Shown here one piece after another: positions 54,983 to 63,599 of a stretch of 64,000 bases of DNA (the first letter of the stretch is position 1; the number at the start of each line of letters is the position of its first letter). The DNA lies in the NCBI RefSeq assembly GCF_003149085.1, contig NZ_QGDT01000016.1:1-64000 (forward strand), read 5' to 3'. The translations under genes and the position numbers were made by a program. The DNA comes from Dyadobacter jejuensis (lineage in GTDB: Bacteria > Bacteroidota > Bacteroidia > Cytophagales > Spirosomataceae). The notes below the pieces were generated by a model, which was not told where the DNA came from, made no database searches, and was given only the letters and a program-made list of their open reading frames with translations.

Positions 54983-55003
54983 AGTATAAACTAGCTGATT
55001 TTT

Positions 55004-55052
55004 AAAACATCCATCTTTGAGATAAAAAAAATATTTCATGGATGGATGTTTT
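55004..55052 (+). terminator. Terminator after the RND operon
   Basis: AAAACATCCATC (55004-55015) pairs with GATGGATGTTTT (55041-55052); the loop is 25 bases. It follows the pump stop at 54982 and ends with TTTT, separating the operon from the tRNA-Pro array. Confidence 0.6.
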
Positions 55053-55066
55053 ATGTAAAAGATTGC

Positions 55067-55074
55067 TACATTTG
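55067..55074 (+). promoter_or_regulatory. TAnnTTTG box in front of the tRNA-Pro array
   Basis: TACATTTG at 55067-55074 fits the Bacteroidota -7 consensus and lies ten bases before the first tRNA-half repeat at 55084. A matching -33 TTG is weak. Because no equally good box occurs directly upstream of the intact tRNA (55533-55540 reads TATTTTCG), this is the likeliest promoter for the whole array. Confidence 0.5.
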
Positions 55075-55083
55075 CAACCCAAT

Positions 55084-55538
55084 CGGGATGTGGCGCAGCT
55101 CGGTAGGGTGTCCCGCAGGGCGGAAAGGTCGCTAGAGTAAAAGAATATAAGAATAGAATAAGTAGTCACGGGATGTGGCGCAGCTCGGTAGCGTGTCCCG
55201 CCAGGGCGGGAAGGTCGCTAGAGTAATAGAATTAAGTAAACAGTCACGGGATGTGCTCGTGTTAAATATTTTCGGGATGTGGCGCAGCTCGGTAGCGTAT
55301 CCCGCAGGGCGGGAAGGTCGCTAGAGTGATAGAATTAAGTAAATAGTCACGGGATGTGGCGCAGCTCGGTAGCGTGTCCCGCCAGGACGGGAAGGTGTCA
55401 GAGTAATAGAATATAAGAATAGAATAAATAGTCACGGGATGTGGCGCAGCTCGGTAGCGTGTCCCGCCAGGGCGGGAAGGTCGCTAGAGTAATAGAATTA
55501 AGTAAACAGTCACGGGATGTGCTCGTGTTAAATATTTT
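55084..55538 (+). repeat. Upstream array of tRNA-Pro 5'-half repeats with GC hairpins
   Basis: Five copies begin with the tRNA-Pro 5' end CGGGATGTGGCGCAGCTCGG at 55084, 55169, 55273, 55350 and 55435; two short copies (CGGGATGTGCTCGTG) begin at 55247 and 55513. Each full copy keeps the acceptor 5' strand and D arm, then carries a hairpin such as TCCCGCCAGGGCGGGA where the anticodon arm should be, then AGGTCGCTAGAG and an A/T-rich tail ending in AGTCA. Unit lengths run 85, 104, 77, 85, 104 bp. The 55084-55349 block is duplicated at 55350-55615 with the intact tRNA in the final 77-bp slot; the two 104-bp units are identical. No T arm or 3' acceptor strand is present. Confidence 0.85.
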
Positions 55539-55615
55539 CGGGATGTGGCGCAGCTCGGTAGCGTACTTGCATGGGGTGCAAGAGGTCGCAGGTTCAAATC
55601 CTGTCATCCCGACCA
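55539..55615 (+). tRNA. tRNA-Pro (anticodon GGG), CCA encoded
   Basis: Full cloverleaf: acceptor CGGGATG/CATCCCG, D arm GCGC-AGCTCGGTA-GCGT, anticodon stem CTTGC/GCAAG with loop ATGGGGT (anticodon GGG), variable AGGTC, T arm GCAGG-TTCAAAT-CCTGT, discriminator A and encoded CCA at 55613-55615. It is the only intact member of the surrounding repeat array and is followed by a terminator at 55623. Confidence 0.97.
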
Positions 55616-55622
55616 ATAGTTT

Positions 55623-55650
55623 AAATGCTGTCTGAATGGACAGCATTTTT
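55623..55650 (+). terminator. Terminator of tRNA-Pro
   Basis: AAATGCTGTC (55623-55632) pairs with GACAGCATTT (55639-55648) around a 6-base loop, followed by further T. It begins eight bases after the encoded CCA. Confidence 0.85.
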
Positions 55651-55653
55651 GTT

Positions 55654-55966
55654 ATAGCGTAGCTCGGTATCGTGTCCCGCCGCGGCGGGAAGGTCGCAGA
55701 CTAGGCGTCCCCGATCCAATCCTGTCATCCCGACCAAATTGAAGAAAGGCTGTCTGCAAAGGCGGTCTTTTTTTATTTAGTGCATCTCGGTATCGTATCC
55801 CGCCGCGGCGGGAAGGTCGCAGACTAGGCGTCCCCGATCCAATCCTGTCATCCCGACCAAATTGAAGAAAGGCTGTCTGTAAAGGCAGTCTTTTTTATTT
55901 AGCGCATCTCGGTATCGTGTCCCGCCCCGGCGGGAAGGTCCCAAATAAATCCTGTCATCCCGACTA
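55654..55966 (+). repeat. Three downstream tRNA-Pro 3'-half repeats with own terminators
   Basis: Units at 55654-55736, 55778-55859 and 55900-55966 (spacing 124 and 122 bp) keep part of the D arm (AGCTCGGTATCGT or ATCTCGGTATCGT), a GC palindrome (TCCCGCCGCGGCGGGA in the first two, TCCCGCCCCGGCGGGA in the third), and the tRNA-Pro 3' end AATCCTGTCATCCCGACCA (the third ends CTA instead of CCA). Their 5' acceptor strand is lost, so they cannot close an acceptor stem. The first two are nearly identical. Each is followed by a T-tailed hairpin (55747-55774, 55870-55896, 55976-56004). Confidence 0.85.
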
Positions 55967-55975
55967 ATTATCGAA

Positions 55976-56004
55976 AGGTTGTCTTAAAATAGACAGCCTT
56001 TTTT
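55976..56004 (+). terminator. Last terminator of the tRNA-Pro array
   Basis: AGGTTGTCT (55976-55984) pairs with AGACAGCCT (55991-55999), then TTTTT. It is the same hairpin family as those at 55747-55774 and 55870-55896 within the array and at the tRNA-His gene. Confidence 0.8.
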
Positions 56005-56018
56005 CGTAACTTAACAAT

Positions 56019-56255
56019 ATGAACTTCGTGGTTTATATCTTGTTTAGTGCCTCTTTAGGTAAATACTATGTGGGTCAAACTCAGGACTTGGAAGTCCGTT
56101 TGCAGCAGCATAATTCAGGAAGGGGGAAGTTTACTTCTACAGGGGCTCCGTGGGCGGTTGTACACCAGCAGACCTTTGCAACTAGAGCGGAGGCTGTAAG
56201 GCTCGAAACTACCATTAAGAAACGCGGGATAAGGCGGTACTTAGAGGCTATCTAA
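56019..56255 (+). CDS. GIY-YIG nuclease family protein
   Basis: This 78-aa protein is a stand-alone GIY-YIG domain of the UPF0213/YhbQ type: FVVYILFSASLGKYYVGQTQDLEVRLQQHNSG supplies the GIY and YIG equivalents (VYI ... YYVGQT) and the catalytic Arg (LEVRLQQHN), and AVRLETTIKKRGIRRYLE carries the Glu. Such proteins may cut DNA, but most solo members have no known role. In Bacteroidota they are often found next to tRNA genes, as here. The ATG at 56019 immediately follows the array terminator. Confidence 0.9.
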   Translation: MNFVVYILFSASLGKYYVGQTQDLEVRLQQHNSGRGKFTSTGAPWAVVHQQTFATRAEAVRLETTIKKRGIRRYLEAI

Positions 56256-58389: not shown

Positions 58390-59082
58390 TTATGCTAGTA
58401 ATTTTTCCAATTTCATTTTCCACTTTTCCCAGTCGTTCATTTCTTTGGTTTGTAAATCGATGAATTTTTGAGTGTGGTCCTGATGTACTAAATGACATAG
58501 TTCGTGAATGATAACATACTCAATACAGCCTTTGGGTGCTTTAATCAATTCAGGATTTAATATTATTTTTCCCTTTGGTGTGCAGCTTCCCCAGCGAGTT
58601 GGCATTTCCCGTAGTACTATTGAACTTGGCTCTACCTGATGTCTTCTGAACCTCTCAATTAGTGGTCGTGAAATGGTCTCAAACTTTATCCTAGCATGTT
58701 GCAAATACCAATCATTCAACAAGAGTGCAGCTCTTGACTTTTCCTTTACGGTGACTTCAATGAATTTGCCTTTTAATTTTACACCTTCATCGTTTCCATC
58801 ATGTACTAATAATCGGTATTGTCTGCCCAGATACAAATGGGTCTCACCACTAACATATTTTCGTTGCGTGGTCTTTGGGTGAAAAGAAAGGAAGTAACTC
58901 TGCTGTTTTATGATCCAAGGTGCTTTCTTTCTAATATCCTCTTTCACTTTTTCGATTGATGTGCCAGTTGGGGCTTTTACCAAGACGTCCATTTCTGGAG
59001 TTACGGTAATGCCCAGCGATTTTCGATCAGAGAACTCCAGACTAAAATCAATCGGCTTACTTCCAAATTGTATCGTTTCCAT
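58390..59082 (-). CDS. YgjP-like (M48-type) metallopeptidase domain protein
   Basis: This 230-aa protein carries the YgjP/DUF45 metal site H-E-L-C-H at 193-197 with a downstream His in HQDHTQKF, and the family block MPTRWGSCTPKGKIILNPELI at 160-180. The start at 59082 (METIQFGSKP) lies two bases before the hsdR stop codon region (59085), so the two genes are tightly linked; the frame also opens upstream to 59118, inside hsdR. YgjP-like peptidases are regular companions of type I restriction loci, but their role there is not known. Confidence 0.85.
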   Translation of the reverse strand: METIQFGSKPIDFSLEFSDRKSLGITVTPEMDVLVKAPTGTSIEKVKEDIRKKAPWIIKQQSYFLSFHPKTTQRKYVSGETHLYLGRQYRLLVHDGNDEGVKLKGKFIEVTVKEKSRAALLLNDWYLQHARIKFETISRPLIERFRRHQVEPSSIVLREMPTRWGSCTPKGKIILNPELIKAPKGCIEYVIIHELCHLVHQDHTQKFIDLQTKEMNDWEKWKMKLEKLLA

Positions 59083-59084
59083 CT

Positions 59085-62000
59085 TTATTTGTATCGAATT
59101 TTGGCTACTTCTAGGCAATCGTGTGCAATCTGGTCCATATCATTGAAAGACATCTCCACATTGTGTTTGTCTCGTACTTCGTCAATCAAATAATCTCCGA
59201 TATCTATGAGTAATTTGCCGGTAATATTAGTTTTTGATTGCCAATCAATTACAGGCTTTCCATCGTCTAATACAGACCCATGAATGAGATTGTCAATATG
59301 CAATGCCGTTTGTGTTGAAACCTCTTTTCGATTTTTTTTGTCTAAAATTTTATCCTTTAATGCTTCAGTAGTTAATCCATAAAATGCCTTTGCTGCATCT
59401 CTGCCATTCAGCTGTTCTGGCAGGTCTTTGTCTGTATGCGCCAGTACATGGTTCATGATATCTTGAACTCTGCTCAAGTATTGCGCTTCACTAATACGTT
59501 TGGCTTCATAATCGGCAATTGTTTCCTTCAACATTTGCGAAAATTTCTTATAAAAAGAGGGATCTTCATCCATTTTTTTGCTGATGTGTTTCGCCGTTCG
59601 ACTGGCAATTTTATCTGCCTTGGCCGCTTTACCCGTTGTGTTTTCTACTTCCTGCTGAAATTTATCCGTATCGAAAATATTTACCAATTCGGTAATGGTT
59701 TCAATTTTATCAGTAGTAATGTGGGTGTCGATCAATTTTTGAATCTGCCCCTCATATTGCTTATAGTCGATTTCATCGCTGTATCGCTCCACTACTGCCA
59801 AGCGCAGTTTCAGGAACATCGTTAGGTCTTCCTTATAGCGATTGATTGTTTTTAATTCTGTGCCATTGTGGAACTGGATCGACGATAAAGCCAATTTCAA
59901 ACTCTTGGCAAATGCGGCAAGTTTGTCATAAAATAAAACACGTATAGCTTCATCTTTCAGTAGTTGTTGATAAGCCTCTGCATCCCTTTTATTGGCTATT
60001 ACCTTGAAAATATCCCATAAATCCGAATATTTTTGAGGTAGCTTTTTTATTTCTTCAGAAATATTAATTATTGTACCTGCCAAGTCTTCTTCATCAAAAT
60101 CTTCAAATGAGGAATACAATTGTAAGGCATCGTCCAGATTTTCAATTACGCCGTAGTAGTCTATTATATAACCAAATTCTTTGTCTGGATATATACGGTT
60201 TACCCTTGCAATGGCTTGCAAGAGTTTATGGCCTAGAAGATTTCTTGTGAGATACAGCACAGTATTCTTAGGTTCGTCAAATCCTGTGAGTAGCTTATCT
60301 ACAACAATGATGATTTCAGGGTCTTTCTGGTTTTTGAATCGGCTAATGATATTCTTCTCATAACTCTTAGAGTTTCCATGTGCGTCCATCATTTTCAACC
60401 AAAACGACTTCACTTTTTCGGGAGATTTTTCATAGGCACTTTCTTCTCCTTCTCTATCATCGGAGGACGAAATCAATACCTCACTGCTTACAATGCCAAT
60501 TTCATCTAGATATTCTTTGTATTTGATAGCATTTACTTTTTTATCGCAAACCAACTGCCCCTTAAATGGGGTTTTACCTTGCCAATTATTACGAAAATGA
60601 TAGCTAATGTCCCAAGCGATCATGCGCATTTTCTGTTCGGCTGAATTCAAATGGTCATATCTGGCAAATTTCTTCTTGATGTCTGACTTTTGATAATCAG
60701 ACAAGGGTTCGGATACCATTCCGAAAAATGTATCCAAGGGGCTTGCATTTACATCTTGTTTGGCCATTCGGCCCTCATATAATAACGGTACAACGGCCTG
60801 GTCACTTACGGCTTGTTTGACTGTGTATGCGTCAATCACACCACCAAATTTTGCCGCGGTGCTTTTGTCTTTTTTGAAAAGGGGGGTTCCTGTCAGAGCA
60901 ATAAAACAAGCATTTGGTAATGTTTTTTGCATGTCAATATTAAATGTTCCATGCTGGGTTCGATGTCCCTCGTCTACCAATACAAAAATGTCGTGGCTCT
61001 CCAGAGGCTTATCGATTTTTTTTACGGCAGCTACAAATTTATTGATAATGGTAGTTACCACTGCATCACTTTTATTCTCTAGCAGTTCAACCAACCGCTG
61101 TCCGGTGGTTGCATTCTCAACAAATTGGCCACATTTTCTGAATGTACTGGTAATTTGACTATCTAAATCAGTACGGTCGGTAACCAGTACGATCTTTGGA
61201 TTACGAATACTGGGTTCCATTGCGATGGCCTGAGCTAACATGACCATGGTCAAAGACTTTCCGCTGCCTTGTGTATGCCAAATTACCCCGCCTTTCCGTT
61301 GGCCATTTTCTATGTTTTTTATTCTGTGCATCGATTTTTTGATGGCAAAAAACTGTTGATAACGGGCTACTTTCTTTTCGCCATTGTCGAACAAAACAAA
61401 ATTGAATGCAAGGTCCATTAATCTGTCAGGACGGCACATACCAAACAAATATTTATCCTGTTCGGTGGGTAGGATTTTCTCTTGTTCCAATGCATCAAAG
61501 TATTGACGAACATATTGGTAACGGTCTGTGAATAATTGTTGCTTATTTTCAGTTGAAAGCGGTTGGTTTTTGACCGCCTCTAATTCGTTTTTGTAGTTAC
61601 TTTTTTCTTCATCGCTGCTAAACTTTTCCTGCCACGTTGCCCAAAACTTTTCGGGAGTCGCATTGGTGGCATAGGTCGCCTCTTGTGTAGCAATGCTTAA
61701 TAGTAGTTGAGAATACACATACAAATTGCGGATACCATCTTCTTGTTGGTTTCGCAGATGCTGGCTGACAGCCTGTTTCAATGGCTCTTTCATAGCCGGT
61801 CGTTTGCACTCGATGATACAAAGGGGTATACCATTTACAAATAATACCAAATCGGGTCGGTAATGCTCTTTGCTGGTGCTGCGCATCACACTGTATTCTT
61901 TGGTTACATGAAATACGTTATTCCTTATGTTTTTCCAATCGATGTATTGCAGGGTAAAACTTTTTTTATCGCCATCCACACTTTGTTCCAGTGCCTCACC

Positions 62001-62312
62001 CAGCGTGAGTAAATTATAGGCTCTCTCACAGGCAGTAATATACCCCTCGTTCATGGGCAGGTTTTTCAATGCGAGTATGCCCCGTTCAATATTATCGTCA
62101 GTAAAAATGCTCGTTTTGGAAGCGCTTACCCTGATACTATTGATTTCCTTTAGTTGCTTCCGCAATATATCTTCTAGTAATACATGGGTAGTTTTCCCCC
62201 CTCTTAACCGTTCCGCTTCTGTCGGTCTTAAATAGGTATAGCCCAAATTTATCAGCATTTGTAGCGCCGGAATTTGGCTGATATCGTCTTCCTTAAAACT
62301 GGGTGTTTCCAT
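59085..62312 (-). CDS. hsdR: Type I restriction endonuclease subunit R
   Basis: This 1075-aa protein is the motor-nuclease subunit of a type I restriction system. The N-terminal PD-(D/E)xK nuclease site is D154, E168 and K170 (PDLVLF...CIIECK); the superfamily 2 helicase follows with Walker A TQGSGKS (347-353), DEGH (447-450), and later motif VDKLLTGFDEPKNTVLYL with the arginine motif QAIARVNR. The C-terminal region is helical and binds the methyltransferase. It translocates and cuts unmethylated DNA. hsdM and hsdS are not in the window and should lie to the right of 64000. Confidence 0.95.
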   Translation of the reverse strand: METPSFKEDDISQIPALQMLINLGYTYLRPTEAERLRGGKTTHVLLEDILRKQLKEINSIRVSASKTSIFTDDNIERGILALKNLPMNEGYITACERAYNLLTLGEALEQSVDGDKKSFTLQYIDWKNIRNNVFHVTKEYSVMRSTSKEHYRPDLVLFVNGIPLCIIECKRPAMKEPLKQAVSQHLRNQQEDGIRNLYVYSQLLLSIATQEATYATNATPEKFWATWQEKFSSDEEKSNYKNELEAVKNQPLSTENKQQLFTDRYQYVRQYFDALEQEKILPTEQDKYLFGMCRPDRLMDLAFNFVLFDNGEKKVARYQQFFAIKKSMHRIKNIENGQRKGGVIWHTQGSGKSLTMVMLAQAIAMEPSIRNPKIVLVTDRTDLDSQITSTFRKCGQFVENATTGQRLVELLENKSDAVVTTIINKFVAAVKKIDKPLESHDIFVLVDEGHRTQHGTFNIDMQKTLPNACFIALTGTPLFKKDKSTAAKFGGVIDAYTVKQAVSDQAVVPLLYEGRMAKQDVNASPLDTFFGMVSEPLSDYQKSDIKKKFARYDHLNSAEQKMRMIAWDISYHFRNNWQGKTPFKGQLVCDKKVNAIKYKEYLDEIGIVSSEVLISSSDDREGEESAYEKSPEKVKSFWLKMMDAHGNSKSYEKNIISRFKNQKDPEIIIVVDKLLTGFDEPKNTVLYLTRNLLGHKLLQAIARVNRIYPDKEFGYIIDYYGVIENLDDALQLYSSFEDFDEEDLAGTIINISEEIKKLPQKYSDLWDIFKVIANKRDAEAYQQLLKDEAIRVLFYDKLAAFAKSLKLALSSIQFHNGTELKTINRYKEDLTMFLKLRLAVVERYSDEIDYKQYEGQIQKLIDTHITTDKIETITELVNIFDTDKFQQEVENTTGKAAKADKIASRTAKHISKKMDEDPSFYKKFSQMLKETIADYEAKRISEAQYLSRVQDIMNHVLAHTDKDLPEQLNGRDAAKAFYGLTTEALKDKILDKKNRKEVSTQTALHIDNLIHGSVLDDGKPVIDWQSKTNITGKLLIDIGDYLIDEVRDKHNVEMSFNDMDQIAHDCLEVAKIRYK

Positions 62313-62530: not shown

Positions 62531-63599
62531 TTTGATTTACACTCGACAATAGGTTGTATAGGTCGGTATTGATGTAATAGTTATCCCTGCCCAATTTCAT
62601 CTTTTGCACAATACCAATCCGATCAAGTTCATCCAAATACTTGGTGGCGGTTATTCGGCTTACGTCCAAATCGTTCATTACAAAATCAATTTTGGTGTAA
62701 GGATGTTTAAAAAGATTGTTAATTAAATCTTGGCTGTAGAACTTGGTGTTCTCTCTTATTTTTCTCTTGTGCTTAAGCATCAAGTTCTTGATCCCTTCTA
62801 TTATTTTGATGGTTTGCAAAGAAGTCTGCTCTACCCCTGCAAGAATATAAAGCACCCATTCTTCCCAGGCACTCTCAGTTCTGACTTTTTGCAGCAAACG
62901 GTAATAGTCGGCTTTGTTTTGGTTGATATAACGACTCAAATACAAAATGGGTAGATTCAATAACCCTTCTTTTACGAGATACAAAATGTTGATAATCCTG
63001 CCTGTTCGGCCATTGCCATCATAAAAAGGGTGAATACTCTCGAACTGGTGATGGATCACCGCCATCTTCACCAGCGGGTCCCAATCGCTAAGTTCATTGT
63101 CATTGATAAACTTCTCCAGGTTATTCATCAAGACAAGCACTTCGTCATAGGTTTGTGGGGGTGTATAGACCGTCTCTCCAGTTTGTTCATTTTTAAGCTC
63201 TGTGCCCGGTACTCTTCTGAAACCTGCCTCATTTTGTTCAAGCTTTGCCTGCATCTGAAGGATATGGTTGTTGGATAAAAAACCTTGATACCTCACCGTT
63301 TCAAATCCCCAAAGCAATGCTTCGGCATAGTTGTGTACTTCTTTGGATGCAATAGATCTAAACTGCTTTTTCAGATAATCGCCTTGATATAATTCATCGT
63401 GGGTGGTGATAATGTTTTCAATGGCCGAACTGTCCTTTGCTTCCTGTAAAGAAAGTGTGCTGAGAAGTATATTTTCATTCGGAATGCTAAGAGCAGCACC
63501 TTTCATCTCGGCCAATGCACTGCGCGCAGCAGCTGTTTTCTTTAGAATGGCTTTGGTCTCTAAATCCATGGGCAAGGGGAGATGGGGGATGTTATACAT
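62517..63599 (-). CDS. Fic family AMPylating protein
   Basis: This 360-aa protein starts at 63599 (MYNIPHLPLP). It has the Fic N-terminal domain with inhibitory motif SSAIEN at 57-62 (S/T-x-x-x-E-N, class II self-inhibition), the catalytic Fic loop HPFYDGNGRTGR at 190-201, and a C-terminal winged-helix-like part (IDFVMNDLDVSRITATKYLDELDRIGIV). It transfers AMP to target proteins. It overlaps the GxxExxY gene by 8 bp and precedes hsdR. Fic proteins recur inside type I restriction loci; a role in control or defence is inferred. Confidence 0.92.
   Translation of the reverse strand: MYNIPHLPLPMDLETKAILKKTAAARSALAEMKGAALSIPNENILLSTLSLQEAKDSSAIENIITTHDELYQGDYLKKQFRSIASKEVHNYAEALLWGFETVRYQGFLSNNHILQMQAKLEQNEAGFRRVPGTELKNEQTGETVYTPPQTYDEVLVLMNNLEKFINDNELSDWDPLVKMAVIHHQFESIHPFYDGNGRTGRIINILYLVKEGLLNLPILYLSRYINQNKADYYRLLQKVRTESAWEEWVLYILAGVEQTSLQTIKIIEGIKNLMLKHKRKIRENTKFYSQDLINNLFKHPYTKIDFVMNDLDVSRITATKYLDELDRIGIVQKMKLGRDNYYINTDLYNLLSSVNQTKHV

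Follow-up and report, generated by a model that had tools for sequence, protein, structure and literature searches.

Two phage systems stand close to the locus reported here. According to the available excerpts of the respective reports, the GIY-YIG homing gene segB of phage T4 lies between tRNA genes (PMC2988022), and SegB of phage T6 drives the tandem amplification of a tRNA-containing segment via short repeats (PMC13096335). In these excerpts, SegB and other free-standing GIY-YIG homing endonucleases lie beside or between tRNA genes of varied isotype, as does the element described below, whereas duplication of a tRNA half with a palindrome at the anticodon-arm position is a feature of the element that they do not describe for SegB (PMC2988022, PMC13096335). 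Furthermore, SegB is phage-borne, whereas the element is chromosomal, encodes a protein of about 80 aa and is not found in phage collections. The phage and plasmid collections yielded only distant matches, in records labelled Listeria or Staphylococcus, and the viral contigs contained no match to the element.

In fungal mitochondria, C-terminal duplications of atp6 and cob are flanked by GIY-YIG and LAGLIDADG ORFs (PMC6279837). These homing genes resemble the element in that a second copy of one end of the invaded gene lies with the nuclease gene, although the fungal cases concern organellar protein genes and the element concerns bacterial tRNA genes. Allomyces atp6 is reportedly a further case of a homing gene with a gene-end duplication, and we know of no conserved palindrome at the join of the fungal duplications. 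Short GC-rich mobile palindromes occur as REP/RAYT sequences, which are tied to a transposase gene, and as fungal GC clusters. The GTAG and CGTC REPs are palindromes of the REP type, as stated in the accessible part of the source (PMC3733652). REP/RAYT palindromes are dispersed, whereas those of the element are confined to tRNA loci. Tyrosine-integrase islands, and an insertion at the Caldiarchaeum tRNA-Thr gene with a displaced tRNA fragment (PMC3293823), share with the element the use of a tRNA gene as the insertion site and the duplication or displacement of a fragment; in contrast, they encode an integrase or recombinase, and a unit of the element encodes a GIY-YIG protein alone. The open-access literature searched contains no description of a tRNA-dwelling GIY-YIG element, in agreement with the view in the original prediction that no system of this form had been described.

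The tRNA-Pro(GGG) array of Dyadobacter jejuensis

The window is the whole stretch of D. jejuensis DNA that was analysed, 64,000 nucleotides in length. It contains an intact tRNA-Pro(GGG) gene on the forward strand, identified by both ARAGORN and Rfam (61 bits), and this gene is present in a single copy in the genome. Beyond the array, the genome holds weak, partial matches at other tRNA-like places. Since the gene is single-copy and the outside matches are weak and partial, the array is not a product of chance. The Rfam search of the region revealed no other RNA family, with the intact tRNA alone above its cut-off. The features of the locus are as follows.

55067-55074 (+): Bacteroidota-type -7 box TACATTTG, taken to be the promoter of tRNA-Pro and lying 5' of half unit A
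55084-55168 (+): 5' half unit A, consisting of tRNA positions 1-26, a degenerate palindrome (55111-55125) and a spacer
55169-55246 (+): 5' half unit B, with a perfect palindrome (55196-55211)
55247-55272 (+): truncated 5' unit, only the acceptor 5' strand
55273-55349 (+): 5' half unit C, with a palindrome (55300-55314)
55350-55434 (+): 5' half unit A', the second copy of A, with a palindrome (55377-55392) carrying one mismatch
55435-55512 (+): 5' half unit B', the second copy of B, with a perfect palindrome (55462-55477)
55513-55538 (+): second copy of the truncated 5' unit
55539-55615 (+): intact tRNA-Pro(GGG) gene, single-copy in the genome
55623-55648 (+): terminator-like hairpin 3' of the tRNA, the sole pass in the strict scan
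55655-55736 (+): 3' half unit 1, with D arm, palindrome (55675-55690) and 3' end with CCA
55778-55859 (+): 3' half unit 2, with a palindrome (55798-55813) and 3' end with CCA
55900-55963 (+): 3' half unit 3, with a palindrome (55920-55935), ending in GACTA, not CCA
56019-56255 (+): 78-aa ORF for a GIY-YIG nuclease, the element's coding region, which directly follows 3' half unit 3

The composition given in the original prediction is borne out: five full 5' copies (beginning at 55084, 55169, 55273, 55350 and 55435) and two short ones (from about 55247 and 55513) precede the single intact tRNA, and three 3' units follow it. The 3' units comprise the D arm, a palindrome and the 3' end, and lack the 5' strand of the acceptor; the CCA end ascribed to all of them holds for two of the three, the other ending in GACTA. 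All eight full half copies have a TCCCGC...GCGGGA palindrome in place of the anticodon arm, as the predicted GC hairpin at this position implied. Five copies of the palindrome are perfect, and the remaining three (55111-55125, 55300-55314 and 55377-55392) are degenerate or shorter. The first three upstream units recur 266 bp further on, with 175 of 189 positions identical, and in the last slot of this duplication the half unit at 55273 lies opposite the intact tRNA, with 41 of 77 positions identical; both the duplication and the placement of the tRNA had been recognized correctly. The two kinds of half do not jointly yield a complete tRNA with a working anticodon, both of them carrying the palindrome, and the locus contains an intact tRNA as well. 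There is no support for the split-tRNA or small-RNA array that the earlier inventory implied; the half units correspond to the ends of a GIY-YIG element that is whole in relatives. That inventory described the half units and hairpins accurately but overlooked the GIY-YIG ORF. The spacers of the 5' units contain no recognizable ORF, and the nuclease gene appears to have been lost from them. The window array consists mostly of nuclease-less units, together with one nuclease gene.

The sigma-70 scan of the forward strand before the first half unit detected no promoter, which corrects the promoter-like box proposed at this position, but a Bacteroidota-type -7 box is present there. A TAnnTTTGCA box precedes tRNA-Pro in most of the Dyadobacter loci examined, both empty and filled. 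The RND gene is separated from the tRNA promoter by a stretch with an imperfect inverted repeat of 22 bp (55003-55053), probably the terminator of the RND operon. A terminator hairpin had been assigned to each downstream unit: hairpins followed by T runs do exist, but they are imperfect, and only the hairpin beside the tRNA passed the strict scan, a count not above that of the shuffles. For the half units of the window, folding does not surpass that of shuffled sequences (z from -1.1 to +0.4), and one complete unit from another Dyadobacter genome (G015) gave z = -2.15.

The 78-aa ORF matches Pfam PF01541 with an E value of 3.5e-15 and 56.5 bits (curated cut-off 22.6), and Tyr6, Tyr17, Arg27, His31 and Glu63 are invariant across 13 diverse members of the nuclease family. 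Judged from this profile match and the two Tyr, the Arg and the Glu of the active site, the ORF belongs to the GIY-YIG superfamily, and its sequence suffices to settle the fold. Its closest solved relatives by sequence are the UPF0213/stand-alone GIY-YIG (URI) proteins BH0048 (PDB 1zg2) and EF2693 (PDB 1ywl), which share its length class. A second GIY-YIG-like ORF in the D. jejuensis genome (L163, G000:C20:3887-4114) is interrupted by a stop, and the surrounding 3 kb contain no tRNA.

Complete and empty sites in Dyadobacter

In G015, three tandem 316-bp units precede the intact tRNA-Pro. Each unit is composed of tRNA positions 1-27, a 17-nt palindrome, TCCCGCTTGCAGCGGGA, at the anticodon-arm position, and an ORF for an 81-aa GIY-YIG protein. 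The unit encodes this protein alone and duplicates the 5' half of the tRNA, unlike an att-duplicating integrative element. The same RND-transporter gene precedes the tRNA-Pro locus of the relatives, where the sequence is readable across, and assembly breaks interrupt some arrays. One unit each is present in G050 and G010; G053 has one unit with a stop in the ORF, and G007 retains only the tail of the ORF. D. tibetensis (G043) resembles the window, with one 5' half, the intact tRNA and at least five 3' units; its GIY-YIG ORF ends the array at the start of another contig, the locus being split over two contigs. An intact nuclease of this kind was found in 8 of the 48 Dyadobacter genomes.

In two other genomes (G008 and G051), a near-identical leader runs directly into the same tRNA, and these sites are empty. 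Filled tRNA-Pro sites exceed them by 316 bp or by about three times that length. Accordingly, the nuclease gene is present or absent at one site among close relatives, with an intact alternative allele, as is characteristic of a homing endonuclease. The leaders of other seemingly empty sites (e.g., in G048 and G013) contain eroded remnants of 5' halves; the turnover of units therefore includes loss, and the emptiness of some sites may reflect loss, not a lack of invasion. The original prediction had regarded absence of the array from close relatives, with no RNA made from it, as grounds for abandoning it; the array is indeed missing from most relatives, yet the mobile unit is present in several.

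The element across Bacteroidota

Two samples were used for the wider survey, namely 42 loci from a scan of the genome collection and an even sample of 118 Bacteroidota genomes. In the latter, the nuclease family occurs in 69 of 118 genomes (46 of 67 genera). An intact tRNA lies within 700 nt of the ORF at 38 of the 42 collection loci and at 26 of the 29 best-per-genome loci of the even sample. Pooled, these amount to 64 of 71 loci, and in each of the 64 the nearest tRNA has the same orientation as the nuclease gene; farther out in the examined loci, the density of tRNA genes is about 0.3 per 10 kb. Fragments of tRNA and a palindrome usually accompany the intact tRNA near the ORF. About 15 isotypes are involved (Pro, Val, Ser, Lys, Asn, Asp, Met, Leu, Arg, Thr, Gln, Ala, Tyr, Phe and Glu), as called by ARAGORN alone; in some loci the isotype is that of the nearest ARAGORN gene, and a few of these genes (e.g., Phe, Glu and one Flavobacterium Lys) may be pseudo-tRNAs. 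Two arrangements were observed: a broken 5' half, the nuclease and the intact tRNA, in this order, or the intact tRNA, a terminator, the nuclease and a broken tRNA without the 5' acceptor strand. The exact half-unit pattern, searched for across the phylum, was recovered in its own genome and as one weak match elsewhere. This search was nearly empty because the half-site and the tRNA vary by lineage, and a protein search is therefore needed.

Tandem repetition is most extensive at one locus (L164, G107:C34), in which eight nuclease copies are spaced by about 365 bp, with about 20 copies genome-wide; the 6 kb examined there contain no intact tRNA. In Lunatimonas, nuclease copies are located at tRNA-Pro(GGG), while a nuclease-less, window-like array with the same palindrome is located at tRNA-Pro(TGG) (L. 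salinarum, L115, C111:183752-184197, partly masked as N). This pair of arrays suggests action in trans. In Lunatimonas, the tRNA-Pro(GGG) array closes with a unit (L074:3739-3805) whose end resembles the 3' half of tRNA-Asn, and one element may here join pieces of two tRNAs. A record titled as a Bifidobacterium breve MAG (L098) carries a Flavobacterium-type tRNA-Val element and is most likely a mis-assigned contig.

The palindrome is concentrated around the nuclease gene. Counted outside ORFs and intact tRNAs, GC-containing palindromes of 7-9 bp reach 3.18 per kb within 160 nt of the ORF, compared with 0.20 per kb farther away, and those with a YCCGM half-site reach 2.04 per kb beside the ORF, compared with 0.011 per kb far away (approximately 180-fold). 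The half-site approximates TYCCGMY and exists in lineage variants such as TCCCGCC, TTCCGAT, TCCTGAC, TCACGCT and TGGCGCC, among others, in which the symmetry is kept. Its usual place is the anticodon arm; since it falls within the D loop or beyond position 51 at some loci, this is a tendency, not a rule. A sequence that changes while its symmetry is retained would look like the binding site of a symmetric protein, or a required hairpin. A count of G-U pairs against mismatches gave no clear G-U excess, but terminators swamp this count, which does not separate an RNA hairpin from DNA symmetry. The D. jejuensis genome has six palindrome places, five of them inside the array, and Lunatimonas likewise has six, all inside its two tRNA-Pro arrays. 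This confinement to tRNA loci distinguishes the palindromes from dispersed ones of the REP type and speaks against the genome-wide, unrelated mobile hairpin that had been named as a possible refutation. Derivation of the palindrome from the acceptor stem was considered and rejected; it matches Dyadobacter by eye and fails in Lunatimonas, Flavivirga and Arenibacter.

The nuclease is under purifying selection, with dN/dS values of 0.03-0.23 for most pairs and higher values only in very recent tandem copies with few changes. In a tree of 74 nucleases, reduced to one row per family and isotype for change counts, the tRNA isotype requires 21 changes, compared with a mean of 27.1 and a minimum of 22 in 500 shuffles, whereas host family requires 19 changes in the comparable set, against a shuffle mean of 19.8. 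The tree thus tracks tRNA isotype and not host family. The tRNA-Pro lineage unites copies from Flavobacteriaceae, Chitinophagaceae and Spirosomataceae. Support is weak at many forks, and the AU test does not reject a clade made up of the Dyadobacter nucleases alone (p 0.12). This topology fits target-specific lineages that would move between hosts; ancient insertions inherited vertically with losses could produce a similar isotype pattern.

Proposed mechanism, alternatives and flanking features

These observations reveal an element that is located at tRNA genes of many isotypes, is present or absent among relatives, forms tandem repeats and encodes a conserved nuclease. The complete element is approximately 0.3 kb long and comprises an ORF of about 80 aa for a GIY-YIG protein and a duplicated tRNA half, in which a palindrome of 16-19 nt replaces the anticodon arm. 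One intact tRNA is retained because the element brings its own copy of the 5' half when it lies upstream, or of the 3' half when it lies downstream. Judging from sequence comparison, the window array probably represents a selfish, homing-like element of this kind in tandemly amplified and mostly decayed form; tandem amplification by T6 SegB, homing by T4 SegB and the fungal gene-end duplications may serve as precedents by analogy.

In the proposed mechanism, the nuclease would cut an unoccupied tRNA locus, generating a double-strand break, and repair from an element-bearing copy would install the unit and restore a complete tRNA, thereby accomplishing homing without an intron. The palindrome may mark or protect the occupied site, or it may be the dimeric recognition site of the nuclease. 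Relatives with an empty site have nearly the same tRNA as the intact one beside the element. With the tRNA body unchanged, a nuclease reading only this body would cut its own host, and therefore the site must span the flank or the cutting must be weak. The changed leader or tail beside the tRNA would destroy a flank-spanning target, and the intact tRNA could therefore survive. Where the element lies upstream, the nuclease is probably expressed from the tRNA promoter. The repeated tRNA halves would then recombine, allowing units to expand, contract and shed nuclease genes, with arrays of the window type as a late stage.

Several other explanations were weighed against this homing-like element. 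The half tRNAs and hairpins might be transcribed as small RNAs, decoys or regulators that serve the host, with the GIY-YIG protein either working as a processing nuclease or acting as a toxin, the pseudo-tRNA then being its target or antidote. Such a role would agree with the placement of the units, which follow a conserved tRNA promoter box and share the strand of the tRNA, with the purifying selection on the nuclease, and with palindromes that stay perfect although their sequence shifts between lineages. However, the half units of the window fold no better than shuffles, and occurrence in only 8 of 48 Dyadobacter genomes, often in decayed form, is unlike a host function; we consider this explanation unlikely. 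A still less probable proposal is that the pseudo-tRNAs shield tRNA-Pro by spoiling it as an integration site for islands that use its 3' half. In at least eight relatives (G040, G044, G005, G050, G053, G054, G018 and G017), the intact gene and a tRNA-Pro 3' half, from about position 31-33 to 75-79, are about 20-38 kb apart, which is the pattern that integrated islands would leave. Two of these relatives (G050 and G053), however, carry the element as well as a distant 3' half, and a shield leaves unexplained the nuclease and the like architecture at about 15 isotypes.

The two ordinary alternatives offered in the original prediction are both very improbable. Repeated att-site duplication by integrase-carrying elements would account for duplicated tRNA 3' ends, and islands do use tRNA-Pro in relatives, but it is contradicted by complete 316-bp units that encode the GIY-YIG protein and no integrase, by the duplication of the 5' half in many units, and by the replacement of the anticodon arm with a palindrome. 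Simple decay of tandem tRNA-Pro genes, without any element, can claim that the window units are imperfect repeats arising partly from the 266-bp tandem duplication, and the window copy is indeed partly eroded. It explains neither the nuclease ORF nor a palindrome whose half-site is common to unrelated tRNAs and taxa and which lies beside GIY-YIG ORFs, not genome-wide, and it is contradicted by the phylum-wide association between tRNA and nuclease.

Extended beyond Dyadobacter, the homing-like reading describes a phylum-wide group of minimal mobile elements of about 0.3 kb that parasitize chromosomal tRNA genes, each combining a single-domain GIY-YIG nuclease with a pseudo-tRNA half that bears the palindrome and leaves the host tRNA intact, with isotype-specific lineages, tandem amplification and nuclease-less arrays, such as that of the window, that may be maintained in trans; we regard this broader picture as somewhat more probable than its negation. 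If it is correct, more than half of the sampled Bacteroidota genomes host a selfish element hidden in essential tRNA genes, the element ranks among the smallest nuclease-encoding mobile units, and it shows how a parasite can settle in an essential RNA gene with no intron involved. It would also explain odd tRNA fragments and the tRNA-linked 'GIY-YIG nuclease family proteins' found in annotations. A half-site common to many isotypes poses a recognition problem, and the family is a possible source of small site-specific nucleases.

Farther along the window, a string resembling the tRNA 3' end, the second such, at 63499 was dismissed as chance. The reverse strand encodes a 1075-aa ORF at 59085-62312 that by eye resembles the HsdR subunit of type I restriction systems, and adjoining it, at 58390-59118, is an ORF for a possible SprT/YgjP-like hydrolase, likewise judged by eye.
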